The notes under the pieces were generated by a model. It was not told the origin of the DNA. It ran no database searches and saw nothing but the letters and a program-made list of their open reading frames with translations. This document shows, piece by piece, positions 24,986-50,562 of a stretch of 64,000 nt of DNA. Position numbers and translations under genes: made by a program. Every line of letters starts with the position of its first letter. Position 1 is the first letter of the stretch. The DNA comes from Deltaproteobacteria bacterium. GTDB lineage: Bacteria; Myxococcota_A; UBA796; SXON01. The stretch is from positions 1 through 64,000 of the forward strand of contig BJHF01000028.1 in the NCBI GenBank assembly GCA_014191855.1, in the 5' to 3' direction.

Positions 24986-25453
24986 CTAACGCGCTTCGCG
25001 CCGAATCCCCTCCGCCTCCACCCACGCCTGGAGCCGCTCGAGGTCGTCCGTGGGGAGCGTTTGGTTCGCCTCGCCGGTGAGGCCGGCGAACACGCTAAGC
25101 GTCCAGGACGACGCGGAATCGGTCCACACCGGTGCGAACTCGAGGTTCCAGTAGTACACGCCGGGGCCCCCCCAGCTCTCCGTGTGGCAACAACTGCACG
25201 TGCACCGCCTCACTTCGGCGGTCATCCACAGGAATTCTGGATCGCTGAGCCGCGGATCGACCGGGTCGGGCTCGGTGCCCGACTTGTTGCCGCCGTGCGT
25301 GGGCAAGCGACCGTCTTCTTCCACGACCGCGCGACAGGTCGCCTCCGACATCGCCTCACCTTCTGGCAAACACTCGTTGTGCCGGGGGACGTAGGGGGCG
25401 GCGCCGGAGTCGCGCTCGCCGGGTGCGCACGCGAGGAAGGAGAAGAACACCAT
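24986..25453 (-). CDS. Putative lipoprotein with CTCSCCH cysteine cluster
   Basis: 'MVFFSFLACAPGERDSG' lipobox; 'RRCTCSCCHTESWGGPGVYYWNLEFAPVW'. Confidence 0.7.
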   Translation of the reverse strand: MVFFSFLACAPGERDSGAAPYVPRHNECLPEGEAMSEATCRAVVEEDGRLPTHGGNKSGTEPDPVDPRLSDPEFLWMTAEVRRCTCSCCHTESWGGPGVYYWNLEFAPVWTDSASSWTLSVFAGLTGEANQTLPTDDLERLQAWVEAEGIRREAR

Positions 25454-29738: not shown

Positions 29739-30341
29739 TCAGTCGCGACGCACGAGGATGAAGCAGAACGGCATCGCGCCGGCAATCCCCCACGGTTTGC
29801 CGACGCAGACGGTGTCATTCACGCGACGCATGAAGTCGCGCGTGCCACCGTACACTGCGATCTGCGGCCCCACCCAGTTGGGAACGACCCAAGGCCACCC
29901 CGGCGCCACGGCCGTATCCGGCACCTTGTGGTAGTCCACCACCCAGGCGCCCCGAGCCTCGAACTCGGTATTGCCCGCCGTGGGCACGAGCTGGAAGTAG
30001 CCCGGACCGATGAGGTAGCGCAATGAACCCTCGTTGTAGCCGAAGATCCTGGGGGAACCACCGGGCGCCGGGCGGCAGAACACCTTCTGGAACGTGCGCG
30101 CGACGGACGGCAGCGGCAGCGAGTTCCACCCATCGTGCGCGACCGGTTCGAGGGGCCCCTTCTCGCCCACGAAGTGGTTGTCGTCGATGTTGGGATCGGC
30201 GATCTCGTAGAGGCGACCCAGTTCGACCGTACCGCAGCCGCGAAAAGCGGCGTAGCGTGCGGCCTGGTCGAGCGGATCGAGGATCGCGCAAACGTCTGCG
30301 AGGGTGCTCGAGGGTGTGCGGAGGAGCGCGGCGAGGTCCAT
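29739..30341 (-). CDS. Hypothetical protein
   Basis: Start MDLAALLRTPSSTLADV; last gene in the run downstream of the T2SS operon; no recognised domain. Confidence 0.6.
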   Translation of the reverse strand: MDLAALLRTPSSTLADVCAILDPLDQAARYAAFRGCGTVELGRLYEIADPNIDDNHFVGEKGPLEPVAHDGWNSLPLPSVARTFQKVFCRPAPGGSPRIFGYNEGSLRYLIGPGYFQLVPTAGNTEFEARGAWVVDYHKVPDTAVAPGWPWVVPNWVGPQIAVYGGTRDFMRRVNDTVCVGKPWGIAGAMPFCFILVRRD

Positions 30342-30375
30342 GCGGGCGGTTAGCCCGGCGAGAGTCGGTTCGCCT

Positions 30376-31860
30376 CTATGGCGGCTCGTACGCATCTCCG
30401 TGTCCACCAACGCCCACGGGGACCGCGAACACCCCCTTGCGGTCCCGATCCATCACGTACAACGTTTGCGTGTCCCAACCCCCCCGGCCATTTCCCCAGT
30501 GCATATTGGGAATCCAACTCGACCGGAGCTGTGACACCTTCTCGGCCTCGGCGCCTTCGGTCGCAAACCGCCACACCACGCCCTCGATGTATTCGCTGAC
30601 GTAGAGGTTGCCGCACTCGTCGGTGTTGATCGCGTCGAGACCGCCATTCTCCGAGTAGGCGCCGGGGGCGAGGCAGATGAGCCCCGGCATGCCCCAGGCG
30701 GAGCCATCGGTGCAGCTCCCCACGCTCGGGTACACGTCGTCGTGCGTTTCGCAGTCCGCACCCTCCAGGTGATCGGCACACCCCTCGGCGATCGCGGCGT
30801 AGTAGTCCTCGTAGTTCCAACACGCGTTCACGCCCTCGAAGCTCATCGCGCACGTACCGGGCTTGCTGCCCATCATGCACGCGGCGCCCTCACCCAGTCC
30901 CTCGCAGGCCTCGGTGGCCTCGGCCGACGTGCGCGGGCAGAAGAGCCCGAAGGTGCCAGTCTCGCAGCGGGACTCGAGCGGCTCGCCGAAGCGGCTCGTG
31001 GTGCACGCGCCGCCGATCGCAAGGCCGTCGCAAGCAGCCGTGTCGGTTGCGTCCGCGCAGTCGAGGTCCCCGCTGCCATCGTCGGCGCACACGCCGAGGC
31101 CGTATCCATAGTAGGTTGGGCATTCATCGCCCGCCGGATGGGAGTCGCACCAGTCGGGAGGCACGCCGGGGGCCTCGGGTGTTGTGGCAACAATACGAGG
31201 TTCAGTCCACGTAGTGTCGGCGATGCGGTCCGCCGCCCAAACGACGCCGGCGCCGAAGCTCCCGACGTAGAGCGTTTGGTATCCGGGCGCGAAGGTGACG
31301 CCGTTGGGTTGGTATAGTCCCTCCACGATCACGGTGTACTCGCCCGTTTCGGGGTCAACGCGACGAACACGCCCGCCCGATTGTTCGGACACGTAGACGA
31401 ACCCGTCGAGCCCCACATCCAGCCCGTTCGGGTACTCGAGCCCGCTGAGTACGACGGAGGTCGCGCCCGTCGCCATCTCCACGCGGATCAGGCTGCCGTT
31501 CGTCACGTCGCAGAACACCAGGTCCCCATTGGGCAGGAACCGGGTTCCCGCGCCATACGTCGTCGCGCCGGCGACGATCACGCGCGTTTCCCCTCCCTGA
31601 TTGATCCCCACGAGGTTCCCGTTCTCGTCGATGCTGACGAGGTACCCCTCCGCGTCGAACGCAAAATCTTCGGCGCCAGTGAATCCAGAGAGATAATCCG
31701 CCTTCAACGGGAGTTCGGCGAGCGAGTCACATTCCGCGGGCGTTCCGCCTGTGTCGCCCGAGTCGTCGGTGTCGGTGTCGGGGACGCCAGTCTCCCCATT
31801 CCGCTCAAGGGGGTCGGCCTCGGTGCTGCAGGCGATCGCAAGAAACAGCAGGGCGCGCAT
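30376..31860 (-). CDS. NHL/SMP-30-like beta-propeller lipoprotein with cysteine-rich insert (paralog A)
   Basis: Lipobox 'LFLAIAC', 'DTDTDDSGDTGG' linker, 'YPNGLDVGLDGFVYVSEQSGGRVRRVD', Cys-rich mid-region, C-terminal 'SSWIPNMHWGNGRGGW'. Confidence 0.82.
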   Translation of the reverse strand: MRALLFLAIACSTEADPLERNGETGVPDTDTDDSGDTGGTPAECDSLAELPLKADYLSGFTGAEDFAFDAEGYLVSIDENGNLVGINQGGETRVIVAGATTYGAGTRFLPNGDLVFCDVTNGSLIRVEMATGATSVVLSGLEYPNGLDVGLDGFVYVSEQSGGRVRRVDPETGEYTVIVEGLYQPNGVTFAPGYQTLYVGSFGAGVVWAADRIADTTWTEPRIVATTPEAPGVPPDWCDSHPAGDECPTYYGYGLGVCADDGSGDLDCADATDTAACDGLAIGGACTTSRFGEPLESRCETGTFGLFCPRTSAEATEACEGLGEGAACMMGSKPGTCAMSFEGVNACWNYEDYYAAIAEGCADHLEGADCETHDDVYPSVGSCTDGSAWGMPGLICLAPGAYSENGGLDAINTDECGNLYVSEYIEGVVWRFATEGAEAEKVSQLRSSWIPNMHWGNGRGGWDTQTLYVMDRDRKGVFAVPVGVGGHGDAYEPP

Positions 31861-31866
31861 GGAACC

Positions 31867-33393
31867 TCAGGGCGTCGGGTCGAAGGCTTCGCCGTGGCCG
31901 GGAACGCCGATGGGGATGGCAAATACGCTGCCGCGATCGCGGTTGGCGAGGTACAACACGTTCTCTTCCCAGCCACCCACCCCATTGCCGAAGTGCATGT
32001 TGGGGATCCAGCTTGCGCGTACGTTCATCACCAGCTCTGGCTCTTGGCCCTCCGACGCCCAGCGCCAAACGGTGCCGTCCACATAGGCGGAGGCATAGAC
32101 ATTTCCGCACGCATCGACATTCAGTCCGTCCAACCCCGAAGCAGCGCCTCCCCCGATCGGCGGAGCCGAACACACGTCGCTCGCGGCGCCCCACGCTGCG
32201 CCGTCGGAGCACACACCCACGATGGGGTAGGACCAGCTCTCGACGACACACGCATCGCCGCGGGCCTTCTCCAGGCAAGGCGCCGTATAGGCATCCAGGG
32301 TATCGGACACATAACAGAGTGGTGCGCCTTCGTAGTTTTGCGAGCAGGAGCCACCCATGCCCTCGGGGCTGCTGCATCGCCTCCCCGTCCGGTCAACGCA
32401 GGGCTCCACCCACTCGGTGGGCGCGGACGGGCAGATGAGGTCGGGCGCGTAGGGCGTGCCGACGCAGATGGACTCAATGGGTTGGCCGAACGCATCCGTC
32501 GTGCAGGCGTCGCCCGCGACCTTCCCGGCGCAGGCGCCCGTTTCGTAGGCTACTTCGCACGTGGCATACCCAAGGTCTCCAGTCGAACATTCGCCGATGC
32601 CATACCCCGCTGCGGGGGTGCAAGGGGTGCCGATCGGATTCGTGTCACACACGTCGGCGGGTGGGCCCGCGGAGCCTGGCGTCAGCCCGAAGCTGCGAGG
32701 GCGCGACCAGGACCCGTCGCTCCCGAGATCCATCCGGTACACCACGCCTCCGCCGAAGCTCCCCACGTACAAAGAGTCAAAGTTGGGCCCGAAGCTGACA
32801 CCGTTGGGCGCATACAGCCCCTTGGCGATGATCGTGGACTCGCCAGTCTCGGCGTTCACCTTGCGGACCTGCCCGGCCGAGGTTTCGGCGACGTACACAA
32901 ATCCGTCGATGCCAACGTCGAGGCCGTTTGGGTAGGAGAGCCCGGCCAACAGCACCGTGCTGCTAAGTGAAGCCGGGTCTACGCGGACGATCGCGTTGTT
33001 GCCGACGTCGGCGTACACAATCTGCCCATCCGCGAGCATGTGCGTTCCCGCCCCCATGCCCGCGCCGGCCAGCATGATCTTCTTGCTGCCGTCTTGCTTG
33101 ATCCCCACGAGGTTGCTGTGGAGGTCGATGCTCACCAGATAGCCTTCGCCATCGAGCGCGAAGTCCTCGGCGTTGGTGAATCCTTGTAGCTCTTCGGCGG
33201 CTTCGATGGGGAGCGCCGGGAGCGCGTCACAATCGTAGACCGCCGAGTCTTCGGGCGGGGCCGTATCGGTGTCGGCCGTGTCGCCGCTGTCGGGCTGCCC
33301 CCGCGCAGCGCTGTCGCCTACGACCTCCACCGACACCGGATCGCACGCCGCGAGCACCAGGAAGGCGGGGAGGAGCCTCACGTGCTCACTCAC
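31867..33393 (-). CDS. NHL/SMP-30-like beta-propeller lipoprotein with cysteine-rich insert (paralog B)
   Basis: Lipobox 'LVLAAC'; 'YPNGLDVGIDGFVYVAETSAGQVRKVN', C-terminal 'ASWIPNMHFGNGVGGW'; clearly paralogous to 30376-31860. Confidence 0.82.
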   Translation of the reverse strand: MSEHVRLLPAFLVLAACDPVSVEVVGDSAARGQPDSGDTADTDTAPPEDSAVYDCDALPALPIEAAEELQGFTNAEDFALDGEGYLVSIDLHSNLVGIKQDGSKKIMLAGAGMGAGTHMLADGQIVYADVGNNAIVRVDPASLSSTVLLAGLSYPNGLDVGIDGFVYVAETSAGQVRKVNAETGESTIIAKGLYAPNGVSFGPNFDSLYVGSFGGGVVYRMDLGSDGSWSRPRSFGLTPGSAGPPADVCDTNPIGTPCTPAAGYGIGECSTGDLGYATCEVAYETGACAGKVAGDACTTDAFGQPIESICVGTPYAPDLICPSAPTEWVEPCVDRTGRRCSSPEGMGGSCSQNYEGAPLCYVSDTLDAYTAPCLEKARGDACVVESWSYPIVGVCSDGAAWGAASDVCSAPPIGGGAASGLDGLNVDACGNVYASAYVDGTVWRWASEGQEPELVMNVRASWIPNMHFGNGVGGWEENVLYLANRDRGSVFAIPIGVPGHGEAFDPTP

Positions 33394-34342
33394 ACGTCTG
33401 CAACGCGAGGTTGCACGTTTGTCCCTCCGGGCAATCCCCCGGGCCAGCGCATGGCGTGTGTCCGGTTACGCTCACATGCGCCACCAGCTCGTAGTCCACC
33501 GTGAAGTCAGCGCATCCTTCGCCGAGCATCACCTTGTCGACCGTCCGCCGCTGGATGCGCGCGCTTGGGTATCCGGTCACGCCAAAATCCAGCAACGCAT
33601 CCATGACGCTCGACGCGATCTCCGCGCTCCCATCGTCGACGAACGTACACTCCAGGGTAACCGGAGTGATCCCATGCTGGTCTACGTTCACGCTCACGAA
33701 GAGCTCGCTCCGCACCGCTTGTGGCGGAGCGTCCCAAGTGAGCGCCAGCGCTGTGCCCTCCGTGATCACCCAATCGAGGGTGGTGGGGACGAGCGGCACC
33801 ACGCCTACGCCGTGCATCGTGAGCGCCTCATACGCGCCGCCCTCGGTCTGAAGCCGGATGAGCTTGCCGGGCTCGAAGGCAGGATTGTCAAGGTCCGTGT
33901 AGCTGTATTTGTTCCCCGTGCTCAGCGGATCCATGCTCACCGGCGTGGTGAGCCCGGCGATGGTGACGGTGCCGAGGTTCTGGTTGAGCGGGTACTCGAT
34001 GCACTCACCGTCGAAATCGCACGTGTCGCCGGGATCGCACGTCGGGTTGCAGTACGGGTTCCCGCGCTTGAGCAGCCGACAATCGCCCTCCGCCGCCACT
34101 TCCGTGAGCACGGCAACCGGCACGACGCCGTTCGCGATGGTGCCATCGGCCACGGAGTAGCTCTCATTGGCCTCCACCTCGAAGCCGCCCCACCGCCGAT
34201 CGAGGTCGCACGGCCCGTTCAACGCAATGGTGTCGGGGTCTCCGTCGGGCTCGGAGGTGTCGATCGGCACGGAGTCGGCGGGCGGAGCGGAGTCCTCGGC
34301 GGTGAAGCAACCGACGAGGCCGAGGAGGAGGACGAGGCGCAT
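33386..34342 (-). CDS. Exported lipoprotein with Cys-rich motifs
   Basis: Lipobox 'LLLGLVGC'; 'CNPTCDPGDTCDFDGECIEYP' and C-terminal 'CAGPGDCPEGQTCNLALQTCE'. Confidence 0.75.
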   Translation of the reverse strand: MRLVLLLGLVGCFTAEDSAPPADSVPIDTSEPDGDPDTIALNGPCDLDRRWGGFEVEANESYSVADGTIANGVVPVAVLTEVAAEGDCRLLKRGNPYCNPTCDPGDTCDFDGECIEYPLNQNLGTVTIAGLTTPVSMDPLSTGNKYSYTDLDNPAFEPGKLIRLQTEGGAYEALTMHGVGVVPLVPTTLDWVITEGTALALTWDAPPQAVRSELFVSVNVDQHGITPVTLECTFVDDGSAEIASSVMDALLDFGVTGYPSARIQRRTVDKVMLGEGCADFTVDYELVAHVSVTGHTPCAGPGDCPEGQTCNLALQTCE

Positions 34343-34353
34343 GGCGCAGTATG

Positions 34354-36162
34354 CTAGGCTTTGCGGCGGCGCGCGAGCACGATCGCGGCAACCGCCAATT
34401 CCAAGCCGTGAAGCGGGAGTCCCGCGGGGCCACCGGCGTTGCACTCGGCGCCGTCGGGTCGATCGGGGTCGGTGCCGCAGCCGATGGGATCCACGCCTGT
34501 ATCGCCGCCCGTGGGGTCGCCGGAGTCGTCCGGATCCTCCGTTGCGCCGGGATCGGAGTTCGCTTCGCCGGGGGTCGGCGATGCGTCGGGGTGCCAATCC
34601 GTATGTTGGTCCGAGTCCTCGCCGTCGGCGTACCGACCGATCGAGGTGCCGGCGGAGACCTTGTCCACCACGTCGGTGGCCCCGCCGTCCCCCGTCAGCC
34701 CGTCGCCCTCGGCGCCGCCGTACAGCACCGTGTCGAGCACGACCCCGGTGCAATCCAACACCCGCACGCCGTCTCCATCGGTGCCGTTTCCAAGGTCCAA
34801 CTTACTCGCCGAGTAGTCCTGGTTGTCGACGTCACCGCCGCCCACGACGTAGAATTCGCCGGGCGCCAGCGAGGCACCCTTCTCCAGCGTGGCGTTGGTG
34901 GCCCAACTGCTTTTGGCGGCTTCCACGACAAAGCCTTCCAGGTTGATCGTCGAGGTTCCGGCGTTGTAGAGCTCTACGAACTCGTACGTGGCGTCGTCTT
35001 CCGTGGAATCGTAGAGCACCTCGTTCACCTTGAGGCCCTCGCCGCCCGTCGCATCACACTGAGGCGTGATGTTTGCGCTGCCCGGGGTGTTGCTGCTGGA
35101 TTCGGTCCAGTCGTCGCCGCTCAGATCGGTGTCCACGCCGTCGAGCCTTCGGGCGAGGCTCACATCCTCGCCCGGCACGACCGCGAGCGACGTCGCGATG
35201 ACGCCGCTGTCGTCGAAGAGGTTGTCCCCGTTTGAATCGCCGTACACCACGCTGTCGACCAGATAGTCCCCGCACACGAGGTACGCGCCGTCGCCATTTG
35301 TGCCGTTTCCGAGGGACACCTCGTCCGTCACCGTGCCGCCAGCGCCGACCACCAGAAAGCCAAGCGCCTCGATGATCGTGCCTTCCGGCAGCGCCACGTC
35401 GTTGCCGCCGGTGCTTTTCGTGGCGCCGCGGACGATCCAGCCCGACACGTCTACGGGGGCGGTGCCGCGGTTGTAGAGCTCGATCCACTCCAAGCCATCG
35501 TCGCTGCCGGCCGGATTGGAGAGCAGCTCGTTGAGGCGGATATCGGCGATGCTGGTGCAGTCGGCCGTGGAGGCCGTGCCGGTGTCGCCCGTGTCGCCCG
35601 TGTCTTCCGGGTCGACCACCGGCGGCTCGGGGTTCGCCGCGCCGGGGGACGGGGCCTCGTAGTCGAGGAAGTCTACGCCGGAGACGTCCGTATCGGTGCA
35701 GTCGGCGCTGCCGTTCCAGCGGGCGATGGAGTGCCCACCTGAGACGTCGGGGGCGGGGAGGCTCGTGCTTGTGCCAAGATCGTCAAGCAGGCCGTTGGTG
35801 TTGCTGTCGGTGTCGTACAGCACCGTGTCGATGACGGTGCCGTCGGCGCTCAGGATGCGGACGCCGTCGGTTTCGGAGCCTCCATTCTGGAGGTTGCTCG
35901 GCTTGAACTCGCCCGTGAGGTCCCCCGTGGTGCCGCCGATTACGACGTAGCTTCCCGGCGCGAGCGTGAGCGCCCCGAGGGTGAACGACGTTTCGAAGCT
36001 GCCACCGCCCGACTCGATGGTCCAGCCGGTCAGGTCCACCGATTCCGTGCCGTTGTTACACAGCTCGATCCACTCATTTCCCCCGTCCGACTCCGGATCG
36101 GGATCGTAGTAGACCTCGTTGACGAGCACGCCGGCGAAGGACTGAGCAAGGAGGAGCAACAT
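34354..36162 (-). CDS. Multi-lamin-tail-domain (LTD) surface protein with MYXO-CTERM-like tail
   Basis: Signal peptide; three repeats of 'VNEVYYDP..GNEWIELCNNGT..VDLTGW' type; C-terminus 'ECNAGGPAGLPLHGLELAVAAIVLARRRKA'. Confidence 0.85.
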   Translation of the reverse strand: MLLLLAQSFAGVLVNEVYYDPDPESDGGNEWIELCNNGTESVDLTGWTIESGGGSFETSFTLGALTLAPGSYVVIGGTTGDLTGEFKPSNLQNGGSETDGVRILSADGTVIDTVLYDTDSNTNGLLDDLGTSTSLPAPDVSGGHSIARWNGSADCTDTDVSGVDFLDYEAPSPGAANPEPPVVDPEDTGDTGDTGTASTADCTSIADIRLNELLSNPAGSDDGLEWIELYNRGTAPVDVSGWIVRGATKSTGGNDVALPEGTIIEALGFLVVGAGGTVTDEVSLGNGTNGDGAYLVCGDYLVDSVVYGDSNGDNLFDDSGVIATSLAVVPGEDVSLARRLDGVDTDLSGDDWTESSSNTPGSANITPQCDATGGEGLKVNEVLYDSTEDDATYEFVELYNAGTSTINLEGFVVEAAKSSWATNATLEKGASLAPGEFYVVGGGDVDNQDYSASKLDLGNGTDGDGVRVLDCTGVVLDTVLYGGAEGDGLTGDGGATDVVDKVSAGTSIGRYADGEDSDQHTDWHPDASPTPGEANSDPGATEDPDDSGDPTGGDTGVDPIGCGTDPDRPDGAECNAGGPAGLPLHGLELAVAAIVLARRRKA

Positions 36163-36177
36163 CGCCGGCAGTATAGC

Positions 36178-37503
36178 TCACTCCTCGTTCTCGCCACCGA
36201 ACTCGCCCATGGGCGGCCCCATGTCGGGCATCTCTCGTTGGTTCGGGCCGGCGCCGTTGTCGAACTCCAGCTCACGACCGCCGTCTTCCTGGATCGGCCG
36301 GTCCTCGTCATCGCCAGGTCGGCCGGGGTTCATCATCGGCCCGTCTTCTTCGCCGCCCCCGAAGTCGTCGTCGCCGCGCTCGCCCTGCTGCACGATGGAC
36401 TGATCCTCGCGACGCTTCTTGAGCCGCTCGCGCCGCTCCTTGATCCGCTCTTCGCGGCGCTTGCGCCGCTCCTCGCGCGCCTCGTCAGGATCAAGCCCCT
36501 CGTCCATCCCCGCGCTACCGATCTTCTCGGCGCCCCCATCGAAGCGCGGCAGCGTCGGTTCGCCGCCATCGTCCTGCGCGAGCTTGCTGGCCACGCCCCG
36601 GCCGGGCCTGAACGTGGGGCTCAGGATCGTGCCGCCGATGTTGAAGTGGTAGCCGCCGTCGGCATCGCGAGCGCGCTTCATCTGGGGCGCGAGCTTGGCG
36701 AGGCGGTCGAGATCCTCGGGCAGGGTGACCGTGAGCTCGAGCCGGTTTCGGCTGCGAAGGAGCTTCTTGTTCAGCGACACGTCGCCCGTGAGCGTCATGT
36801 CGAGGACATCGCCATCAAACGTGCCTTCGGTGACTTCGAGCTTGCCTTCCTTCGCCTCGAGCCGCACCTTCGCGGCGGTGAACGTGACGACGGGGAGCGC
36901 AAGGCCCATCACCTTGCTCCCTTCCGCGAGCTGGAGTCCATCAAACGACAGCTCGATCGCGCCGGTGGAGTTCTTCACATCCTCCCCGTCGAGCGCGAGA
37001 TCGCTCGTGCCGGAGAGCTTCCCGGCGAGGTGAACGAGGATGTCGTCCTTCTCGATGGGCATCAGCGAGAGGTCAAGGTCGTTGGCGGTGAAGTCGAGCC
37101 CCAGGGTCGACTCGCCCTGGCTGAAGCTCCCGTCGACATCCCCCCCCATCAGCGCGGCATCGAAGCCGAAGCTCCACTTTCCGGCGAGCCGTGGGAGGAG
37201 CTGGAGGCGCACGCCCAGTGAGTCGAGCTTCACCATCTCGGTGCGCACCATGCCCGGCTTCGGTTCGTCCTTCGTGCGCTTCCCGCGCTTCACCGTGTAG
37301 ATCGTAACGTCCGTGGCGCGGACACCCGGCAGCCACCAGGGGCGAACGTCTCCCAGCTCCAGGGCGTAGTCCTTGTTCGCTTCGTGGAATTTGTACTCGG
37401 CGAAGTCGGACATCTCCGCCGAGGGGAAGGTGGCGTAGAACCCGACGGCGAGCCCGAGGACACCGGCGCCGACGCACCCGGCGGCGAGGAGGAGCCAACG
37501 CAT
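36178..37503 (-). CDS. gspN: Type II secretion system protein N
   Basis: 'GFYATFPSAEMSDF', AsmA/GspN-like body; last gene of gsp operon; acidic C-terminal tail. Confidence 0.8.
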   Translation of the reverse strand: MRWLLLAAGCVGAGVLGLAVGFYATFPSAEMSDFAEYKFHEANKDYALELGDVRPWWLPGVRATDVTIYTVKRGKRTKDEPKPGMVRTEMVKLDSLGVRLQLLPRLAGKWSFGFDAALMGGDVDGSFSQGESTLGLDFTANDLDLSLMPIEKDDILVHLAGKLSGTSDLALDGEDVKNSTGAIELSFDGLQLAEGSKVMGLALPVVTFTAAKVRLEAKEGKLEVTEGTFDGDVLDMTLTGDVSLNKKLLRSRNRLELTVTLPEDLDRLAKLAPQMKRARDADGGYHFNIGGTILSPTFRPGRGVASKLAQDDGGEPTLPRFDGGAEKIGSAGMDEGLDPDEAREERRKRREERIKERRERLKKRREDQSIVQQGERGDDDFGGGEEDGPMMNPGRPGDDEDRPIQEDGGRELEFDNGAGPNQREMPDMGPPMGEFGGENEE

Positions 37504-38111
37504 TACTTTTCTCCTTCGGCTGCAGGGATGGCGGCCGTTTCATCAAGGCGGAACGCGCTGATCTCGAAGGTAGCGGAGAGCAATCGCGCGCCCGCAGCGC
37601 CGGAGGTCTTCACGCGGCTGGTGCGGATGCGCATCGGGAAGCCGTTGGTCTCGATCTCGAACAGGAAGTCCGTGAGTTGGCTGAGCGTGACCTTGTCGAT
37701 ATCGACGGTGTAGGACTTCTCTTCGAGGTTTCCCTGGGTGGACACGCCCTTCTCACGTACGGCCTTGAGGTTTGTTCCCACCCCCACCTTCTGCGCCGCC
37801 TTCTCGACGTAGCTCGGGAGGTCCTGGTTCGCGTTCTTCCGGAGGGTGTCCTCGATCTCCACGACCTTGGCCTGGTTTGCCGAATACTCGGCTTGCATGG
37901 CCTCAAGGTGCGTGAGCGCCGCCTGCTTCGTGGTGATGCGGGATTGAACGTCCGACAACAGGGACTTCCCGCCCCAGGCGGTCACCCCCAGCGCGCCGAG
38001 GTAGGCCGTGATGACCAGGCCCAGAAACAGGCTGCGGTCGCGCGGGCTCATGTCGGCGACGAGCGCCGAGAACCGGCTTCGCACCGGCTCGAACATCGTG
38101 AATCCAGCCAT
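37503..38111 (-). CDS. gspM: Type II secretion system protein M
   Basis: Single N-terminal TM 'LFLGLVITAYLGALGVTAW', position between gspL and gspN. Confidence 0.75.
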   Translation of the reverse strand: MAGFTMFEPVRSRFSALVADMSPRDRSLFLGLVITAYLGALGVTAWGGKSLLSDVQSRITTKQAALTHLEAMQAEYSANQAKVVEIEDTLRKNANQDLPSYVEKAAQKVGVGTNLKAVREKGVSTQGNLEEKSYTVDIDKVTLSQLTDFLFEIETNGFPMRIRTSRVKTSGAAGARLLSATFEISAFRLDETAAIPAAEGEK

Positions 38112-39721
38112 CAGCCCTCCTCGCCGGCCGGCGCGCCGGCGGCCTTGTCATCGGGGGTTTCCGGGGTGCCGAGCGGGATGCTCATGTTGAACCGGAGGTA
38201 GTCGCCCAGCTTCTTCTCGTCCGACTTGTGCGCCTGGGCAAAAGTCTCGTTGTTCTTCAAGGTTTCTTCGATCTTGGCCGCCGACTCGTAGGTGTCGGTC
38301 TCGGCCTTGAAGCTCACCGCCTCCTGGGTGATGGTGAGCTCGAGCACATCGATCTTGGCGGTGTTGTTGGCCGGAAGCACGTCCGCCAGCTTCTTGAGCA
38401 TCGCGAGCGTGGGGGGCTCCCCACCCACGATGCTCCCCAGCGCCTCGACGCGCGCCTTCGTTTCGTCGGCGTGTCCCTGGAAGATCGCCAGGGCCGTAGA
38501 CGTGTCGGTGAGCAGATCCTTGTTGGTTTCGGGGAAGCTCTCCATCACCGTGTCGGCGATCTTGGTGTCGAGGCCCGAGAGCTTGTCCCACGCCTGCGTT
38601 GCGCGCAGCCCGACGACCAGCGTTCCCACGACCAACGCAGCGGCCGTTGCCAGCGCACCATAACTCACGACGTTCCACAGGATGTCGGCGTGGCCGCGGT
38701 AGGCGAGCTCGCCGATTCGGAGGTCGGTAACCGGGACATCGCCCGTGGCCGCACGAGCGAGCGCGACCGCGAGTGCGCATGCGGGGGGGTGCCCGCCGGG
38801 GACTACCACCGCGCGGGTGGGCAGCCCGGTCCACGCGGCGAGGCGACCGGCGAGGCCCGTGAGCTGGCTGGCCCCACCGGCGAGGAGCACCTCGTCGACC
38901 CCGAAGCCGAGCTCGTCCTCCAGCGCGATGAGGCGGGCGCGGATCTCCGCGAGCTGCTCGTCCAGCGCGCCGGTGAGCGCGGCGACAGCCTCGGGGTTCC
39001 TGGGGGTTTCCCCTGCATCCGTCGGCTCGGGGTCGGTCCACCCGGCGCTCGGCTGCGCCGCCACGGGCACGCTCAATGTGTGCTTGGCAGCCTCGGCCTC
39101 GGCGTCCGTGACCCCGAGCACCGCGGCCAACGCCTCGGTGAGCTGCAGGCCGCCCAGCGGGATCAGCCGGGCGGCGATGAGCTGGCCACCCTGGCAGAGG
39201 GCGATGACCGTGCGGGCGTGCCCCATGTCCACCACGGCTTGAACGCCGCGATTTGAGTAGGAAGCCAGCGCCTCGGCGTCGATCACGAGCTGCTTGGGCT
39301 CGGCGCCAACGCCCTTGAGCAACGCGAGCAGCTCCGTGACCTCCTCCTTGCGAGCGATGACGACCCGCGTTCGGGAGCCCGACTTGTCCTGGTCGACCGG
39401 GTGGGTGCCGAGCACCATCTCCTCAAGATCATAAGGGACGTTGCTCTCGACCTCGGCCGGCAGCGCCTTGGCGATCGTGGCGCGGTCGGTGAACGGCAGC
39501 TTCACGACGCGCACGGTGCCGCGGTCGAGCGGCAGCGCGGCGACGCGCTCGGCTTGCCCCCAGATCGGCTCGTCGGCCCGGATGGCTTCAATCGCCGCGG
39601 CGATGCCCACGGAAGACTCCATCTCCACCACGTCGCGCAATACCCACCGGCGGAAGCTGCCTTCCATCGTGGCGACGCGCACGCGCCATGCGCCGGTGTC
39701 GATGCCTTGTACAAATGCCAT
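38111..39721 (-). CDS. gspL: Type II secretion system protein L (PilM-like actin fold plus periplasmic domain)
   Basis: 'VVDMGHARTVIALCQGGQLIAARLIPLGG', 'VLLAGGASQLTGLAGRLA', TM then periplasmic region. Confidence 0.85.
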   Translation of the reverse strand: MAFVQGIDTGAWRVRVATMEGSFRRWVLRDVVEMESSVGIAAAIEAIRADEPIWGQAERVAALPLDRGTVRVVKLPFTDRATIAKALPAEVESNVPYDLEEMVLGTHPVDQDKSGSRTRVVIARKEEVTELLALLKGVGAEPKQLVIDAEALASYSNRGVQAVVDMGHARTVIALCQGGQLIAARLIPLGGLQLTEALAAVLGVTDAEAEAAKHTLSVPVAAQPSAGWTDPEPTDAGETPRNPEAVAALTGALDEQLAEIRARLIALEDELGFGVDEVLLAGGASQLTGLAGRLAAWTGLPTRAVVVPGGHPPACALAVALARAATGDVPVTDLRIGELAYRGHADILWNVVSYGALATAAALVVGTLVVGLRATQAWDKLSGLDTKIADTVMESFPETNKDLLTDTSTALAIFQGHADETKARVEALGSIVGGEPPTLAMLKKLADVLPANNTAKIDVLELTITQEAVSFKAETDTYESAAKIEETLKNNETFAQAHKSDEKKLGDYLRFNMSIPLGTPETPDDKAAGAPAGEEG

Positions 39722-39724
39722 GGG

Positions 39725-40960
39725 TTACTCCACGTGCCAGTATTTCACCCGGCCCGCGTCCGAGTTGGTTTGGTCGATCACGGCAACAATCGTGACCTGA
39801 ACGTTGCTGACCACGCCGGTGGAGGTGACGGTGTAGACCGTGTTCCGGTTGGTGCAGGCCGAGTCGAAGTCGCTGCTCATGGTGTATCCGCCCTCTTCCA
39901 GCGCCGACTTGAAGTCCTTGCACGTGCCGATCACGTTGCCTTCGAGCTTCCACTGCGAGAGGATGGCGATGGCGCTGTCGGCCTGGGCGTCGGTGGTGAT
40001 CGAGCCGCCGCTGTAGGCCCGCAGCATCATCTTGAGGATCTCGTTGTCGGCGCAGGTGATGTTGATCTTCTTGCTGCCGTAGATCGTGAGCTTGTCGCCC
40101 CATCGGTCGTACACGGAATCCTGCCACCCTTCCACCAGGCGGATCTCCTGGGTGCTGTCGAAGGGAGCGTTCTTGGCCAGGTAGGGGGAGATCAGTCCGT
40201 TGTAGAAGTTGTCTTCGTAGCCGCCATTTCCGCTCGCGACGGTGCTGTCGGAGTCCACCCAGTCCGCGAGGTTGCCGATCAGCTCCAGCTTCGTGAGGTT
40301 GCGGTCGCGCAGCCACTCCTCGTTCGCCTCGCCCGACATCAGGGATTCAAGCAGCTTGTAGGTTGGGTCTTCACTGATGGGGTCGGTGTGGTCCGCCAGC
40401 GCCGAAACGTTGACCTTGCAGTCCTCTCCGGAGGCCTTGGTCGTGAAGTCCCCTGTGAAGTCGAGGAAGTTCTTCTTGCCGAAGCGAGACCCTCCCTCTC
40501 GGGACTCCTCGGTCGTCTTCTCGCTGGCCTGGCCAGTCGCGAGGAGCTCGTCGACATCTTCATCTTCAACGTCTCCCCCGCCCACCAACATGCTCCGCAG
40601 CATGCCCGTGTTGATGAACGGGAGAAAGGTCAGGAGCGGATCGCTGCAGGAGATGCCGTACCCGGACACCATCACGCAATAGTCTTTGTTCTTCGTGAGG
40701 TAGGTGCCCATCTGCTTGTTGCCCATCAGCACCAGGCGGAACAGACTCATCCCGGAGTTCGCGATCCAGTAGGCTTGGGAGCCATCGCGCGTGTGTGCCG
40801 CGGCGACGTACCGAACCCGAGTGCCAAAATCGATGTCCGTGACGAGCACGGTCAGGAACATGATCGCCGCCACGACGACGAGCAGCGCGATCCCGCCGCG
40901 GGAGCGACGCTCGCGTTGGCGGCGGAGGAGGTGGCGACCGAAGATCGACGCCTTGGACAT
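39725..40960 (-). CDS. gspK: Type II secretion system minor pseudopilin K
   Basis: 'GGIALLVVVAAIMFLTVLVTDIDF' prepilin-like N-terminus and GspK-like length/position. Confidence 0.82.
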   Translation of the reverse strand: MSKASIFGRHLLRRQRERRSRGGIALLVVVAAIMFLTVLVTDIDFGTRVRYVAAAHTRDGSQAYWIANSGMSLFRLVLMGNKQMGTYLTKNKDYCVMVSGYGISCSDPLLTFLPFINTGMLRSMLVGGGDVEDEDVDELLATGQASEKTTEESREGGSRFGKKNFLDFTGDFTTKASGEDCKVNVSALADHTDPISEDPTYKLLESLMSGEANEEWLRDRNLTKLELIGNLADWVDSDSTVASGNGGYEDNFYNGLISPYLAKNAPFDSTQEIRLVEGWQDSVYDRWGDKLTIYGSKKINITCADNEILKMMLRAYSGGSITTDAQADSAIAILSQWKLEGNVIGTCKDFKSALEEGGYTMSSDFDSACTNRNTVYTVTSTGVVSNVQVTIVAVIDQTNSDAGRVKYWHVE

Positions 40961-41667
40961 CAGTTGTTGTCCTCCGTCGTGGTGCTGTCGCTGCTGCTGA
41001 CTTCGGTGGTAAGCTTGTCGGCGTAGTGGAGCAGCACCGTGGTTGCGTAGGGACGCTCGACGAGTTTTTCAGGGTCATCCGCGTCGGCGACGAGGAACAC
41101 GAGCGCGATCTGCACCGCCCGCGGCAGGGCGTTTGGGGTTTCCCCGCCTGTCGTGTCCCACTCCTCCAGCCACTCGTTCGTCTTCGGGTTGATGAAGCGG
41201 AAGTTCACTTCCTTGAGGTGATAGGCGAGCGGCGAGATCAGCCCATCCTTCTCGGGTTCCTGGTCGATCCGGGGTGCCTCACGGCGCAGCAGCACCTTCG
41301 CCCCATCCATCGTGGGATCGTCCTCGGTCCAGTAGGTGACCTCGGTTTGATCACACTCGCGGGACTCGCGGTACATCCGGTGGTGGGAGAGCGTGGTGAA
41401 CCACAGCGAGTCGGGATCGTTGTTCTTGCCGATGAATTCGGTACGGTAGGTGTTCACCGCGCTGGTGTTGGCCGTGAGGTAGGCGAGGCGCAAGTCGCGC
41501 CGGAGCCGGTCGAGTGCCACCCGCGCCGACTGGTTCGATTGATCCTCCTCCTCCAACACATCGCGCGTATCGAGCGCGCTGCCGATGGTCTCGAATGTGA
41601 TCGCGCCGATCAACGACAGGATGCCCAGCGCGACGACGACTTCGAGGAGCGTGAAGGCGCGACGCAT
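40960..41667 (-). CDS. gspJ: Type II secretion system minor pseudopilin J
   Basis: 'MRRAFTLLEVVVALGILSLIGAITFETIG' prepilin motif. Confidence 0.88.
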   Translation of the reverse strand: MRRAFTLLEVVVALGILSLIGAITFETIGSALDTRDVLEEEDQSNQSARVALDRLRRDLRLAYLTANTSAVNTYRTEFIGKNNDPDSLWFTTLSHHRMYRESRECDQTEVTYWTEDDPTMDGAKVLLRREAPRIDQEPEKDGLISPLAYHLKEVNFRFINPKTNEWLEEWDTTGGETPNALPRAVQIALVFLVADADDPEKLVERPYATTVLLHYADKLTTEVSSSDSTTTEDNN

Positions 41668-42326
41668 CAGGAGCCGCTCGGGTTCATGGCGCCGGTTTCG
41701 CTGTCCACGATCTTGCCGCTCGGGTTGAACACGTGTGTCACGACCTCGATGCAGTTTTCACATTCCACGTCCTCTTCGAGGTCGCCCGGGTCTTCTCCCC
41801 ACCACACCACGACGCGCACTTCACGCATCCACGGCGAAAGCATCTCGTCCATCTGCTCGGGGGACAAGAAGCTGCTCAGGGCGCTTGCGCTCAGCCCATC
41901 TTCGTCGGCAACCTGGGTTTGTTCGTCGTCTTGCGTTCCGGTGATGCCCGACTGTTCGAGCTCCTCGAGCGTGCCCGCGATGTCGCCCATCTGCATTTCG
42001 ACCTTTCGGATGGTCCAAGCGTAGCCGTAGTCGTCGTATTCGCCCTCGAAGTCCACGACCTGGCCATACTCGCCTTCATCGCCGAATTCTTCGAAGCTCC
42101 CTTCTTCGCCCTGGGTGGTGTCCGAGAAACCCTTCATCTCCAACTGAAGCAGCACCTCGGCGAGCTTGGCTTCGGCGAGGGAGTTGGCGGTGAGCATGCG
42201 TTGGCTGTCCATCGTTTGGAGCACGCTCATCGACTGCGACTCGACGAGCACCATCAGCGCCACCGACAAGATCGCCAACGAGATGACGATCTCCAAGAGC
42301 GTGAAGCCGGCGCGGGCGCGGTTCAT
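41667..42326 (-). CDS. gspI: Type II secretion system minor pseudopilin I
   Basis: 'MNRARAGFTLLEIVISLAILSVALMVL' prepilin motif; start corrected to 42326 (ATGA overlap with gspH). Confidence 0.83.
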   Translation of the reverse strand: MNRARAGFTLLEIVISLAILSVALMVLVESQSMSVLQTMDSQRMLTANSLAEAKLAEVLLQLEMKGFSDTTQGEEGSFEEFGDEGEYGQVVDFEGEYDDYGYAWTIRKVEMQMGDIAGTLEELEQSGITGTQDDEQTQVADEDGLSASALSSFLSPEQMDEMLSPWMREVRVVVWWGEDPGDLEEDVECENCIEVVTHVFNPSGKIVDSETGAMNPSGS

Positions 42327-43027
42327 CGGGAGGTCGGGGCCTCGGAGGGAATCCACGACAGGCTGGCTCCGATGGCCGTTTCTTCCGTGTCGAGCCGAAT
42401 CTCGCCGGAGAACGGCTCGACTTCCATGGTGTAGCCATCCGCCGGATCGTCCACCGCCACGATGCGCACCACCGTGAATTCCATCGTTCCATCGGGGAAG
42501 ATGTGGCTGTAGACCACGCGCTCGTCTTCCTCGGTCTTCGGCTCCTTGTCCGACGGGGTGATCGGCTCCGCGTACTGCGGCGTGTACACATAGGCGTATC
42601 GGCAACTTGAGGGCAGCTCGCCGCCGCTCGGGAAGCCCGATGCGTTGAGTCCAGCGAATCGGCCGTCCTGTTTTTGCAGATCCGCGGCTTCGCCCTCCTC
42701 GATCTCCTTCTTGGAGAACATCTTGAGCTTCTGCTGCTGCTCCTTCTCCCAGCGATCCCGAGCGTCGGGCTCGGAAAAGATGAGCGCGCCGGGATCCCCC
42801 ACCTCGATCTTGTAGGTGCCGCGATCGAGGTAATAGGCCACCCGGAAGGTGACGTTTCGCAGCATGGCCTCGGTTTGGAGGAGCTTGTACGTTTCCGCTA
42901 GCTGCTTGGCGGCGCCGCGCTGCTGCAGATCGAACACCGAGGTGAGGACGGGCGCACCGATGGCGAGGACGATGGCGATCACCGCCATCACCACGACCAT
43001 CTCGATGAGCGACATCCCCCGGCGCAT
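42323..43027 (-). CDS. gspH: Type II secretion system minor pseudopilin H
   Basis: 'MRRGMSLIEMVVVMAVIAIVLAIGAPVL' prepilin motif. Confidence 0.83.
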   Translation of the reverse strand: MRRGMSLIEMVVVMAVIAIVLAIGAPVLTSVFDLQQRGAAKQLAETYKLLQTEAMLRNVTFRVAYYLDRGTYKIEVGDPGALIFSEPDARDRWEKEQQQKLKMFSKKEIEEGEAADLQKQDGRFAGLNASGFPSGGELPSSCRYAYVYTPQYAEPITPSDKEPKTEEDERVVYSHIFPDGTMEFTVVRIVAVDDPADGYTMEVEPFSGEIRLDTEETAIGASLSWIPSEAPTSR

Positions 43028-43031
43028 GATG

Positions 43032-43460
43032 CTAGTCCCTCATGTCCCAGGACAGGATGTCGGCGTTCGAGTCCTCGCCGCCCTCCTTGCCGTCCTTGCC
43101 GAGGGAGATGATCTCGTAGTCGTGGTTGCCGTGCGTGCCGGGCGCAAAATACTGGAACGGGGCGCCCCACGCATCGGTGGGCGTTTCGTTGTTCGGGAAG
43201 TACTTCTTCGCGGCGTCCAACCCCTCACCGGTGGTGGGGTACTTCCCCTTGTGCTTGTACGAGTAGGCTGCGAGCGCCTTCTCGATGTTGTTGATCTCAA
43301 TCTTGGTGGCCGATGCGTTGGCATCGTCGAGGTAGCCGGTGACGTTCACCGCGATGACCGTCATCAGCACGCCGATGATGGCGATCACGACCATGATCTC
43401 GACGAGCGACATGCCTTTCTTGTTGTTCAACAGACGAGTACGGGACACAGGGACCTCCAA
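43032..43460 (-). CDS. gspG: Type II secretion system major pseudopilin G
   Basis: 'KKGMSLVEIMVVIAIIGVLMTVIAVNV', 'YPTTGEGLDAAKKYFPNNETPTDAWGAPFQYFAPG'. Confidence 0.93.
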   Translation of the reverse strand: MEVPVSRTRLLNNKKGMSLVEIMVVIAIIGVLMTVIAVNVTGYLDDANASATKIEINNIEKALAAYSYKHKGKYPTTGEGLDAAKKYFPNNETPTDAWGAPFQYFAPGTHGNHDYEIISLGKDGKEGGEDSNADILSWDMRD

Positions 43461-44693
43461 TCAGTGAATGGCAGATGACAATTGAAGCATGGGGAGCAGG
43501 ATGCCGAGCGCGATGGTGGCGACGACGAGGCCCATGAAGATGGTCATGATCGGGGTGAGCAGCGAAGTGAGCTGGTTCACCGTGTTCTCCACCTCGGTGT
43601 CGTAGGCGTCGGCGACCTTGCTCAGCATCGTTTCCAGTTCGCCCGTTTTTTCACCGATGGTGATCATGTGGGTGACGATCGGCGGGAATTCGCCGCTGGC
43701 CTTGAGCGGCCCCGCGATGGACTGGCCCTCGGCGATGTTCTTGCCCGCGCCTTCTACCGCCGCGGCGATCACGTCGTTTCCGACTACGGTTTTGACGATC
43801 GCGAGCGCCGTGAGGATCGGTACGCCGGAGACGAGGAGCGTGCCCAGGGTACGACAGAACCGGGACACCGCGACGGTGCGGTTGAGCGGGCCGAACACCG
43901 GCAGCTTCAGTTGGGTGCGGTGCCACCAGGCACGGCCCTTTGGTGTCTTGATCCACCGCGACACGCCGTACATCGCCAGCGGCACCCCGAAGAGCAGGAA
44001 CCACTTGTAGTTGACGATGAAGTTCGAGATCCCGAAGAGGATCTGGGTGATCAGCGGCAGTGCTTTCCCGAAGCTATCGAAGATGCGCTTGATGCGCGGG
44101 ATGACGAAGGTGAACAGCCCGAGCACGAGGGCGGACGAGACCACCAACATGAGGACCGGGTAGGTGATCGCGGCGACGAGCTTGCCGCGGAGCGCAACGC
44201 TCGCTTCGGTGTAGGCGCTGAGACGCTCCAGCACGAGCTCCAGCGCGCCCGATTGTTCGCCGGCATCGACCATGTTCACGAACAGGTCGTCGAACACGGT
44301 GGGATGGGCCCGCAGCGCCTTGGCCAACGTAGTGCCTTCGTTCACCTTCTCGCGCACGTCGGTGAGCACCCCCTTCAGCTTGGGGTTCTCCGTTTGTTCC
44401 TGCAAAGCACCGAGCGCCTCCACCATCGGGATGTTCGCCCCGACGAGCGTGGACATCTGCGACGTGAGCGTTGCGAGGTCCTGCGGGCTTACCCGCTGGA
44501 AGATCTTGGCGAAGTCGACCTCGATGGAGAGGCCCTTGCCGCGCACGTTCCCGGATTTCTGTTCGTTGACGTCGGTCGGAAATAGCCCCTTCTTACGCAG
44601 GCTCGCGCGTGCGGCTTTGCCGCTGTCGGCGTCGAGCACACCCTTCACGGGTTTGCCGGCGCCATCGAAGCCAACGTATTCGAAGACCGGCAT
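43461..44693 (-). CDS. gspF: Type II secretion system inner-membrane protein F
   Basis: 'MPVFEYVGFDGAGKPVKGVLDADSGKAARASLRKKGLFP', 'FCRTLGTLLVSGVPILTAL'. Confidence 0.95.
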   Translation of the reverse strand: MPVFEYVGFDGAGKPVKGVLDADSGKAARASLRKKGLFPTDVNEQKSGNVRGKGLSIEVDFAKIFQRVSPQDLATLTSQMSTLVGANIPMVEALGALQEQTENPKLKGVLTDVREKVNEGTTLAKALRAHPTVFDDLFVNMVDAGEQSGALELVLERLSAYTEASVALRGKLVAAITYPVLMLVVSSALVLGLFTFVIPRIKRIFDSFGKALPLITQILFGISNFIVNYKWFLLFGVPLAMYGVSRWIKTPKGRAWWHRTQLKLPVFGPLNRTVAVSRFCRTLGTLLVSGVPILTALAIVKTVVGNDVIAAAVEGAGKNIAEGQSIAGPLKASGEFPPIVTHMITIGEKTGELETMLSKVADAYDTEVENTVNQLTSLLTPIMTIFMGLVVATIALGILLPMLQLSSAIH

Positions 44694-46402
44694 CAGGCCT
44701 CCGCGATGTCTTCTTGGGTTACGCGCATCACCTCGTCGAGGGAGGTGCCTCCTTCGAGGACGACGCGGATGCCGTCGTCGCGAAGCGAGCGCATGCCCAG
44801 CTCGCGAGCCCGGCGGGCCACCGCGCTGGTCGGCGCGTTCTTGAGCACCAATTCGCGAACGTCGTCGTGAACGGGAAGGAACTCGTAGATGCCCGTTCGG
44901 CCTTTGTAGCCCGTAGACAAGCACGCCGGACAGCCCACGGACTTGTACACGATGTTCGTGCCGATCAGCGCGCGGGTGATGCCGGCTTCGGCGAGCTCGC
45001 CATCGCTCGGAACATACGCCGCCTTGCACTGCGGGCAGAGCCGCCGCACGAGCCGCTGCGCGAGCACGGCCAACAACGAGCTGGTGACGAGGAATTTCTC
45101 CACGCCCATGTCGATGAGCCGGGTGAACGCCGTGGCGGCGTCGTTCGTGTGCAGCGTGCTGAACACGAGGTGGCCGGTGAGCGAGGCCTGCACGGCGTTG
45201 TCAGCCGTTTCTTTGTCGCGGATTTCGCCGACGAGGATAACGTCGGGATCCTGCCGGAGGTGGGCGCGGAGGGCCGAGGCGAACGTAAGGTCGATCTTCG
45301 GGTTTACCTGCGTTTGGCCGATGCCGCGCAGCTCGTACTCGATCGGATCCTCGATGGTGAGGATGTTGAGATCGGGGGCGTTGATCTCCGCGAGCGCGGA
45401 GTAGAGCGTGGTCGTTTTTCCGGAGCCCGTCGGGCCGGTGACGAGCACGATGCCGTGCGGACGTTGGATGACCTCGCGGAAGAGCGCCACCGTGTCCTTG
45501 GCCATGCCCACGCCATCGAGGGAAAACACGGTTCCCTTCTCGAGGATACGCATGACCACCCGCTCGCCGTGGCGCACCGGGAGGGTGGATACGCGCAAGT
45601 CGATTTCGCGGCCGGCGAACCGCGTACGGATGCGGCCGTCCTGCGGGATGCGCTTCTCGGCGATGTTGAGGCCGGCCATGATCTTCACGCGGCTCACGAT
45701 GCTCGCCTGGAGCTTTGGCGGCGGCTTCACGATCTCGTACAGGACACCGTCGATGCGGAACCGCACCACGAGCTCCTTCTCGAAGGGCTCGATGTGGATG
45801 TCGCTCGCCCGGTCCTTCACGGCGTTCGACAACAAGGAGTTGACGAACTTGATGATCGGCGCCTGGTTGGGATCATCGACGATATCGCCGGCGAGGTTGA
45901 GATCTCCCTCCTCGTCGTCCAGCCCATCCTCGATGATGCCTTCGAGCGTGGCCGACGCGCTCTTCGCGGCGCGGTCGTAGGCCTTGTTCGTGGCGTTCCG
46001 CAGCACGTCCGCGGAGACGACGAACGGGCGCACGGGCGTTTTGTAGAGGAGGCGGAGATCCTCCAGCATGCTCAAGGCGCGACCATCGGCGATGGCGACG
46101 CGCACGAAGGCGCCATCGCGCCAACAGGGGAGGAAGCCCTCTTCACGGGCCATCGCGAGGGAGATCGGACGCACGAGCTCCACGTCCACGGCTTCGTGTT
46201 CGATCGCATCGCGGTAGGGGAGGCCGAGCATCTCGGCAAGGGCCTGGCCCACGGCCGTGGAGCTGGCGACGTTCCCCCGTTGGATGCCCTCGAGGATCGA
46301 GATGCCGCTGCGCTCCGCGTCTTTCTTGGCGTCGCGCATCTTGGCGGGGTCGGCCCCCGCCTTGAGCAACATCTCCTCCATGCCGACGCGACGCACAGCC
46401 AT
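44693..46402 (-). CDS. gspE: Type II secretion system ATPase E
   Basis: 'GLNIAEKRIPQDGRIRTRFAGREIDLRVSTLP', Walker A 'VTGPTGSGKTTTLYSAL', 'LVGEIRDKETADNAVQASLTGHLVFSTLHTNDA', tetracysteine 'CPQC...CPAC'. Confidence 0.97.
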   Translation of the reverse strand: MAVRRVGMEEMLLKAGADPAKMRDAKKDAERSGISILEGIQRGNVASSTAVGQALAEMLGLPYRDAIEHEAVDVELVRPISLAMAREEGFLPCWRDGAFVRVAIADGRALSMLEDLRLLYKTPVRPFVVSADVLRNATNKAYDRAAKSASATLEGIIEDGLDDEEGDLNLAGDIVDDPNQAPIIKFVNSLLSNAVKDRASDIHIEPFEKELVVRFRIDGVLYEIVKPPPKLQASIVSRVKIMAGLNIAEKRIPQDGRIRTRFAGREIDLRVSTLPVRHGERVVMRILEKGTVFSLDGVGMAKDTVALFREVIQRPHGIVLVTGPTGSGKTTTLYSALAEINAPDLNILTIEDPIEYELRGIGQTQVNPKIDLTFASALRAHLRQDPDVILVGEIRDKETADNAVQASLTGHLVFSTLHTNDAATAFTRLIDMGVEKFLVTSSLLAVLAQRLVRRLCPQCKAAYVPSDGELAEAGITRALIGTNIVYKSVGCPACLSTGYKGRTGIYEFLPVHDDVRELVLKNAPTSAVARRARELGMRSLRDDGIRVVLEGGTSLDEVMRVTQEDIAEA

Positions 46403-46405
46403 GGC

Positions 46406-49396: not shown

Positions 49397-50346
49397 CAGC
49401 GTACCTCGTACTCAATCGTCATCTTCTGGTTGCGACGCGTGATCTCGAAGTTGAATCCGCGCTCGTTTTGCAAGGAGCCGTAGGCGCTCATCGCAGTTTC
49501 CATGCTGTTCATGGCTTGACCGTTCACGGTGTGGACCACGTCACCGTTCTTGATCCCCAGCTTGTCGAACACGCTGCCCTTGCGAATTGCGGAGAGGCGG
49601 AAGCCGACCACCGCGCCATCCTCCGTCTTCGGCGAGGCCCGGATCTGCGTGGCCAGCGACTCCACGTTGCCGAGCTGCTTCTCAAGGAAGGAGCGATCGA
49701 CGAGGAATTTCGTGTCGGAGACTTTGGTGACGCCATCGCCTTCGGCTGCAGCGGTGCCGGCATCGGCCACCGCACCGCCGATCCGCTTGTCGTCGCTCCC
49801 CATGCACAAGCAGCCGCCGCCCGCAAGGCATACCTTCTTCTGCTCGATCGTGAGGATCTTGCCCTCGCTCCCCACGTCGTCCCCCACCTTGTACCCGTTG
49901 GCGCGCGAGGACTTGGAACCATCGCTGATGAGCGCGCTGGAGTACTCGGGGAGGCTTGCCACGACCGTGGCGAGGAGCTGCGCCTTGGAATCCTTACAAT
50001 CCTGGGTGGTGGCATCCCCCGCGGCCGCGCTGAACGTGGCCGCCGAGTCGAAGATGTTCCGCCGCACCACGGAGTCGGTGAAGACCCGCTTGTCGGCGTG
50101 AAACGTCATGTCATCCTCCGGGGAGGGGAGGGCCCCTTCCTGGTCGGACATCGGCGGTTCTGGGGTGGAGGTGGACTTCGCGGACAGCGGGGCGTCTTCG
50201 TACTCCGCCGGTTCGGCGCCCTCTGGAAGGGAGAGGCGCGTTCCGACGGCCACGTTGACGCCCGCTCCGACCGCGAAGCCTGTGGCGAGCGCGACGCCGA
50301 GCGTGATCAGCGCCAGGGTGCGGGTGAGGACGGGCAGGCTCGGCAT
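49396..50346 (-). CDS. gspC: Type II secretion system protein C
   Basis: N-terminal TM, HR-like region and PDZ-like C-terminus 'GFRLSAIRKGSVFDKLGIKNGDVVHTVNGQAMNS'; start set at MPSLPVLTRTL. Confidence 0.88.
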   Translation of the reverse strand: MPSLPVLTRTLALITLGVALATGFAVGAGVNVAVGTRLSLPEGAEPAEYEDAPLSAKSTSTPEPPMSDQEGALPSPEDDMTFHADKRVFTDSVVRRNIFDSAATFSAAAGDATTQDCKDSKAQLLATVVASLPEYSSALISDGSKSSRANGYKVGDDVGSEGKILTIEQKKVCLAGGGCLCMGSDDKRIGGAVADAGTAAAEGDGVTKVSDTKFLVDRSFLEKQLGNVESLATQIRASPKTEDGAVVGFRLSAIRKGSVFDKLGIKNGDVVHTVNGQAMNSMETAMSAYGSLQNERGFNFEITRRNQKMTIEYEVR

Positions 50347-50562
50347 GCGTGTCAAGGCCCAGCAAGAACCGTGCCGTCGAATGTGCGTAGGAAGAAGGGT
50401 GAGAAAGCAGACTTTTGACGCCACTCTGTCAAAGTGGCACCGCGGTGTCGGCGCGCCGTGACAAGCTGTCCGTCAAGGGGTGTCGGGGGGCGTCACGGCG
50501 CGTTCCTTCGCGATTGGGCTTCGACTTCGGTCGCCAGAGGCGATAGAGTGGGGCGCCGAGGG

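Follow-up and report, generated by a model that had tools for sequence, protein, structure and literature searches.

The window, a 64,000-nucleotide stretch of one contig (C28) from a group of lake-dwelling myxobacterial relatives, contains a complete and contiguous minus-strand set of T2SS genes, gspC to gspN, followed by five further genes, here called T1 to T5 (Table 1). The secretin, ATPase, platform protein, and major pseudopilin lie within one operon, and in profile searches GspD (550 bits), GspE (676 bits), GspF (462 bits), GspG (99.5 bits), GspC, and GspN exceed their curated cutoffs. GspH, GspI, GspJ, GspK, GspL, and GspM gave sub-threshold matches, yet their positions follow the expected order. 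GspN belongs to the TIGR04411 type and has no Pfam match at an E value of ≤1, so that it does not qualify as a GspN of the Pfam type.

Table 1. Features of the T2SS locus and the genes behind it (positions in the window)
Feature	Position	Strand	Evidence
T2SS operon gspC-D-E-F-G-H-I-J-K-L-M-N	36178..50424	-	NCBIfam/Pfam matches, gene order, contiguous ORFs
gspN, TIGR04411 type, final core gene	36178..37503	-	147.8 bits, cutoff 50
T1, 602-aa surface protein with three LTD domains	34354..36162	-	PF00932 x3, tail alignment
C-terminal sorting tail of T1, MYXO-CTERM-like, under curated cutoff	34354..34503	-	tail alignment and profile comparisons
T2, Cys-rich 318-aa lipoprotein of no known family	33386..34342	-	low-confidence beta-rich model
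T3, beta-propeller lipoprotein with Cys-rich insertion	31867..33393	-	SGL PF08450, E 2.9e-8; PDB propeller matches
T4, paralogue of T3 (46% identity)	30376..31860	-	family match and pairwise comparison
T5, 200-aa protein without signal peptide or family	29739..30341	-	predicted barrel-like fold, pLDDT 94

By ORF reading, all junctions from gspN to T5 measure −8 to +34 bp, with gaps of 15 bp between gspN and T1, 11 bp between T1 and T2, and 6 bp between T3 and T4. T3 starts at GTG 33393 (an 8-bp overlap with T2) or at GTG 33381 (a gap of 4 bp), and T5 starts at ATG 30341, 34 bp after T4; an alternative start at TTG 30410, in the same frame, would make T5 overlap T4. A preliminary description of this DNA had reported a five-gene run with little or no gap behind the T2SS operon, and the ORFs and junctions agree with it. 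A sequence scan, weak for GC-rich deltaproteobacterial promoters, found neither a promoter-like site at the gspN-T1 junction nor a minus-strand terminator-like site from gspN to T2. Because the gaps are tight in several genomes, co-transcription of gspN and the tail in this species is likely.

The domain composition also stands as first described: a multi-LTD protein with a sorting tail, a Cys-rich lipoprotein, two propeller lipoproteins, and one protein without a family. The accompanying statement that the tail is mostly exported holds for T1 to T4, which are exported-like, but not for T5, the last gene. The same crude rule classes ∼34% of the genes in the loci of the genus as exported-like, and four of five is mildly unusual against this background (P about 0.05).

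T1 has three LTD domains (E = 1.6e-47), a very short Sec-type signal at its N terminus, and a C-terminal tail of the form Cys..Cys-TM-RRRK. When the tails were aligned, all 19 orthologues were found to share two invariant cysteines followed by a hydrophobic stretch and an Arg/Lys cluster, and most have a P[LF]xGxE-like stretch between the cysteines and the hydrophobic segment. T1 thus possesses the tripartite organization of MYXO-CTERM tails (invariant Cys, TM helix, and Arg cluster). The curated model TIGR03901 (cutoff of 20 bits) gave no match to T1 at an E value of ≤1 and scored only 8.4 bits in two T1 orthologues. A profile of the T1 tail aligned with canonical MYXO-CTERM tails at 88.7% probability, both profiles being short and of low complexity, and 11 of its 16 further matches in the same genome at an E value of ≤1 were also in the TIGR03901 list. 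With profiles of this kind, the alignment is only suggestive of a relationship between the two types of tail. A search of one paper collection found none on LTD proteins in myxobacteria, and a PDB sequence search with T1 returned nothing useful.

In M. xanthus, MrtX cleaves MYXO-CTERM proteins, which reportedly arrive at the surface via the T2SS (PMC11980579). The present genome contains a potential cognate enzyme, a CPBP protease of the myxosortase family (G000:C2:150481), which matches Mrt_core (NF040914) at 111 bits (cutoff of 100) and passes no single Mrt subfamily cutoff. Given its Sec signal, LTD domains, and Cys-containing, MYXO-CTERM-related tripartite tail, T1 is a credible and probable T2SS client. 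At least 30 MYXO-CTERM proteins above the cutoff are scattered elsewhere in the genome, and the genome-wide TIGR03901 search located none of them on contig C28; T1 is therefore not a dedicated substrate and is probably one among several dozen T2SS clients.

T2, T3, and T4 carry lipobox signals. Profile searches match T3 and T4, both with a Cys-rich insertion, to SGL/strictosidine-synthase propellers, and an alignment-based PDB search with T3 likewise returned propellers. T2 has no match in NCBIfam or Pfam, and a PDB sequence search with it gave nothing useful. An Fn3/Ig-repeat fold was considered for T2 and rejected, as the Foldseek matches were not meaningful and the confidence of the model was low (pLDDT of 68).

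GspN is required for T2SS surface transport of the lipoproteins InvL (Acinetobacter) and PulA (Klebsiella), and a Gly/Ser or Asn/Asp motif directly behind the lipobox marks GspN-dependent T2SS lipoproteins (PMC12802150). No such motif follows the lipidated Cys of T2 (CFTAEDSA), T3 (CDPVSVEV), or T4 (CSTEADPL). In M. xanthus, Ala at position +7 directs lipoproteins to the extracellular matrix and Lys at position +2 retains them in the inner membrane (PMC3222651); T2, T3, and T4 have Ser, Glu, and Pro at +7 and Phe, Asp, and Ser at +2, respectively, and satisfy neither rule. As known sorting motifs are absent and linkage to gspN is not kept, the simplest reading under the M. xanthus rules is that T2 to T4 would be ordinary outer-membrane lipoproteins.

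The position of gspN as the last core gene, directly ahead of four predicted lipid-anchored proteins, could be read together with the requirement of InvL and PulA for GspN: T1 (through its lipidated tail) and T2 to T4 (through their lipoboxes) would be GspN clients that gain from joint, but not exclusive, expression with gspN. We consider this unlikely, given the missing motifs, a GspN of the TIGR04411 type rather than one with a Pfam match, and the loss of linkage in sister species. A stronger version, in which gspN and the tail form a T2SS branch for lipid-anchored proteins, with GspN handing over C-terminally (T1) and N-terminally (T2 to T4) lipidated proteins and gene order recording the recruitment of clients, appears equally doubtful.

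Very short lipoprotein signals, with the predicted lipobox Cys at residues 9 to 14 (MLLLAALGC, MVFFSFLAC, and MRALLFLAIAC), occur in the window at 24986-25453 (−), 25481-26917 (+), 30376-31860 (−), and 33386-34342 (−) and elsewhere at L041:11913-13100. The median position of this Cys is 11 in the genus, versus 15 outside the family, with start codons taken from a simple gene caller. A second T2-like gene in the same genome (L151:6529-10192, G000 contig C15) precedes genes for lipoproteins that contain ASH/HYDIN Ig-like and beta-helix domains, and the window encodes a CotH kinase-domain protein (12991-14190, minus strand; PF08757, E = 1.2e-26) adjoining a lipoprotein gene at 14214-15512.

T5 is predicted to be a cytosolic barrel protein: it has no signal peptide, and its confident model resembles a barrel, with weak barrel- or lipocalin-like structural matches (best, 4mve; E = 6e-3). 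Searches of Pfam and NCBIfam gave no match, and a PDB sequence search gave nothing useful. The family is present in 79 of 94 relatives, and its members (window positions 29739-30341; L154-L178) are 200 aa long, with strong conservation of FQKRFCRP, GPGYF, and TRDFMRRVSxHVSIG. Recoding in T5 paralogues, suggested by apparent in-frame stops, was dismissed when five loci were re-read and the aligned stretch had no premature stop.

Gene order was compared among ten genomes of the same genus (G001 to G010), all of them fragmented MAGs. The order gspN-T1-T2-T3-T5, with a single propeller gene, occurs in G003, G004, and G005, and G001 has gspN-T1-T2 up to the contig end. A short LTD gene stands between gspN and T1 in G007 and G008, with T2-T3-T5 on another contig; in G010, gspN is followed by the extra LTD gene and then by the contig end. 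G002, G006, and G009 keep T1-T2-T3-T5 together and apart from gspN. The gspN contigs of G002 and G006 continue into other genes, while that of G009 stops ∼0.3 kb past gspN, with T1 on another contig behind a long opposite-strand gene. GenBank contigs show the same three arrangements. An LTD gene thus adjoins gspN in seven of the ten genomes (including G010, with the short LTD gene only) and nowhere else in the sample, gspN and T1 are separated in three, and T2-T3-T5 lie away from gspN in six.

The genes downstream of T5 in G002, G006, and G009 (a glycosyltransferase gene and then an opposite-strand lipoprotein gene) recur behind T5 in G003, and these common neighbors place the break between gspN and T1. 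In a gspL-M-N tree, G007, G008, and G010 are basal, and G002, G006, and G009 are nested among the genomes with the complete order (one inner branch has a support of 0.80), a placement that argues for gain followed by separation. The simplest history would begin with gspN-T1, with T2 to T5 appended later and gspN separated in one clade. The extra LTD gene encodes 215 aa (L045:3415-4062 and L046:3398-4045) and begins directly at the gspN stop; the MYXO-CTERM tail of its product comes close to the cutoff (18.8 bits for G007; cutoff of 20), and translation from the called start gives no clear signal peptide.

Opposite-strand or unrelated genes come after gspN in the loci sampled from other genera and families (some contigs end early), and T1 is never directly behind it. 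The operon ends at gspN in most other genera, which bears out the earlier view that T2SS loci usually lack such a tail. T1 orthologues are widespread, and eleven of their neighborhoods in other genera contain no adjacent gspN, gspD, or gspE homologue. Several other families carry T2-T3 pairs unaccompanied by T2SS genes, in several cases beside a PPDK_N-domain protein of 640 to 677 aa that is predicted to be exported. These PPDK_N (PEP-synthase ATP-binding) proteins (L142:3657-5615, L143:4680-6602, L145:4485-6458, and L149:4355-6388) have a lipobox-like signal in some cases; one would not expect to find such a nucleotide-binding domain outside the cytoplasm.

The preliminary description had interpreted the locus as a secretion machine co-transcribed with dedicated surface substrates, every exported tail protein being its cargo. 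Tight junctions, the four exported-like products, the LTD gene behind gspN in most of the genus, and the T2SS lipoprotein clients PulA and InvL elsewhere (PMC12802150) are compatible with this proposal. It is nevertheless very unlikely: both kinds of separation from gspN occur within the genus, T1 is unlinked in other genera, the many MYXO-CTERM proteins are unlinked too, and T5 has no signal. Co-transcription with substrates is accordingly not a conserved design, and the tail was rejected as a conserved cargo cluster on the synteny breaks in sister species and other genera. Lack of conserved synteny, named in advance as grounds for refutation, applies to T2 to T5 and by half to T1. The gene neighborhood is recent and loose and does not reflect a secretion machine that was assembled together with cargo reserved for it. 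Despite the broken synteny, a functional link between T2SS and tail may exist specifically in this lineage.

Confinement of the synteny to one genus, and its breakage there, would also suit a neutral juxtaposition in which no tail gene is functionally linked to the T2SS and T1 takes another route to the surface. This is rather unlikely, as the gspN-LTD adjacency has persisted since the basal clade, despite the insertion of an additional LTD/CTERM gene, and the T1 tail is MYXO-CTERM-like. We favor, as moderately probable, a general T2SS with T1 as one client among dozens and T2 to T5 as an older module, mainly of lipoproteins, joined by rearrangement. The T2SS of the window would be a general-purpose machine of the myxobacterial lineage. 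T1 would leave the cytoplasm through Sec, with its C-terminal helix retaining it in the inner membrane; after presumed lipidation at a tail cysteine and cleavage by a myxosortase-type CPBP protease, it would cross the outer membrane via the T2SS and stay anchored at the surface. The lipoproteins T2 and T3/T4, with the cytosolic T5, would have been attached behind T1 within the genus, and in the sister clade the module would have parted from gspN again, taking T1 along.

The locus therefore offers a probable MYXO-CTERM-type client gene placed beside gspN in one genus. It also reveals a split-cysteine variant of the MYXO-CTERM tail, conserved in 19 orthologues and missed by the curated model, so that the number of T2SS surface clients in Myxococcota has probably been underestimated; interest beyond this variant is limited. 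Within-genus synteny can tell a possible operon partner from passengers, and an apparent "cargo operon" falls apart when sister species are taken into account.

Among known systems, pulA sits at the Klebsiella pul locus. That system (PulA with PulC-O, PulN being needed for PulA; PMC12802150) resembles the present locus in combining a T2SS with lipid-anchored surface protein(s), but here no enzyme-specific regulon is seen, and adjacency is confined to a single genus, in parts of which it is broken. The GspN-dependent lipoproteins of Acinetobacter (InvL; PMC12802150) offer a second parallel, with gspN present and lipobox lipoproteins nearby, whereas T2 to T4 lack a GGG/NDN-type motif after the Cys and GspN is of the TIGR04411 type, with no Pfam match. 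The MYXO-CTERM/myxosortase/T2SS sorting system (PMC11980579) shares with T1 an N-terminal signal, a C-terminal Cys motif, a TM helix, and an Arg-rich end and shares with this genome a myxosortase-family CPBP gene and dozens of MYXO-CTERM proteins. Unlike that system, (i) T1 has its invariant cysteines roughly 10 to 15 residues apart, rather than in the adjacent GCGC of canonical tails, (ii) its tail falls below TIGR03901, with the P[LF]xGxE stretch behind the Cys pair in most orthologues, and (iii) its gene adjoins the gsp genes.
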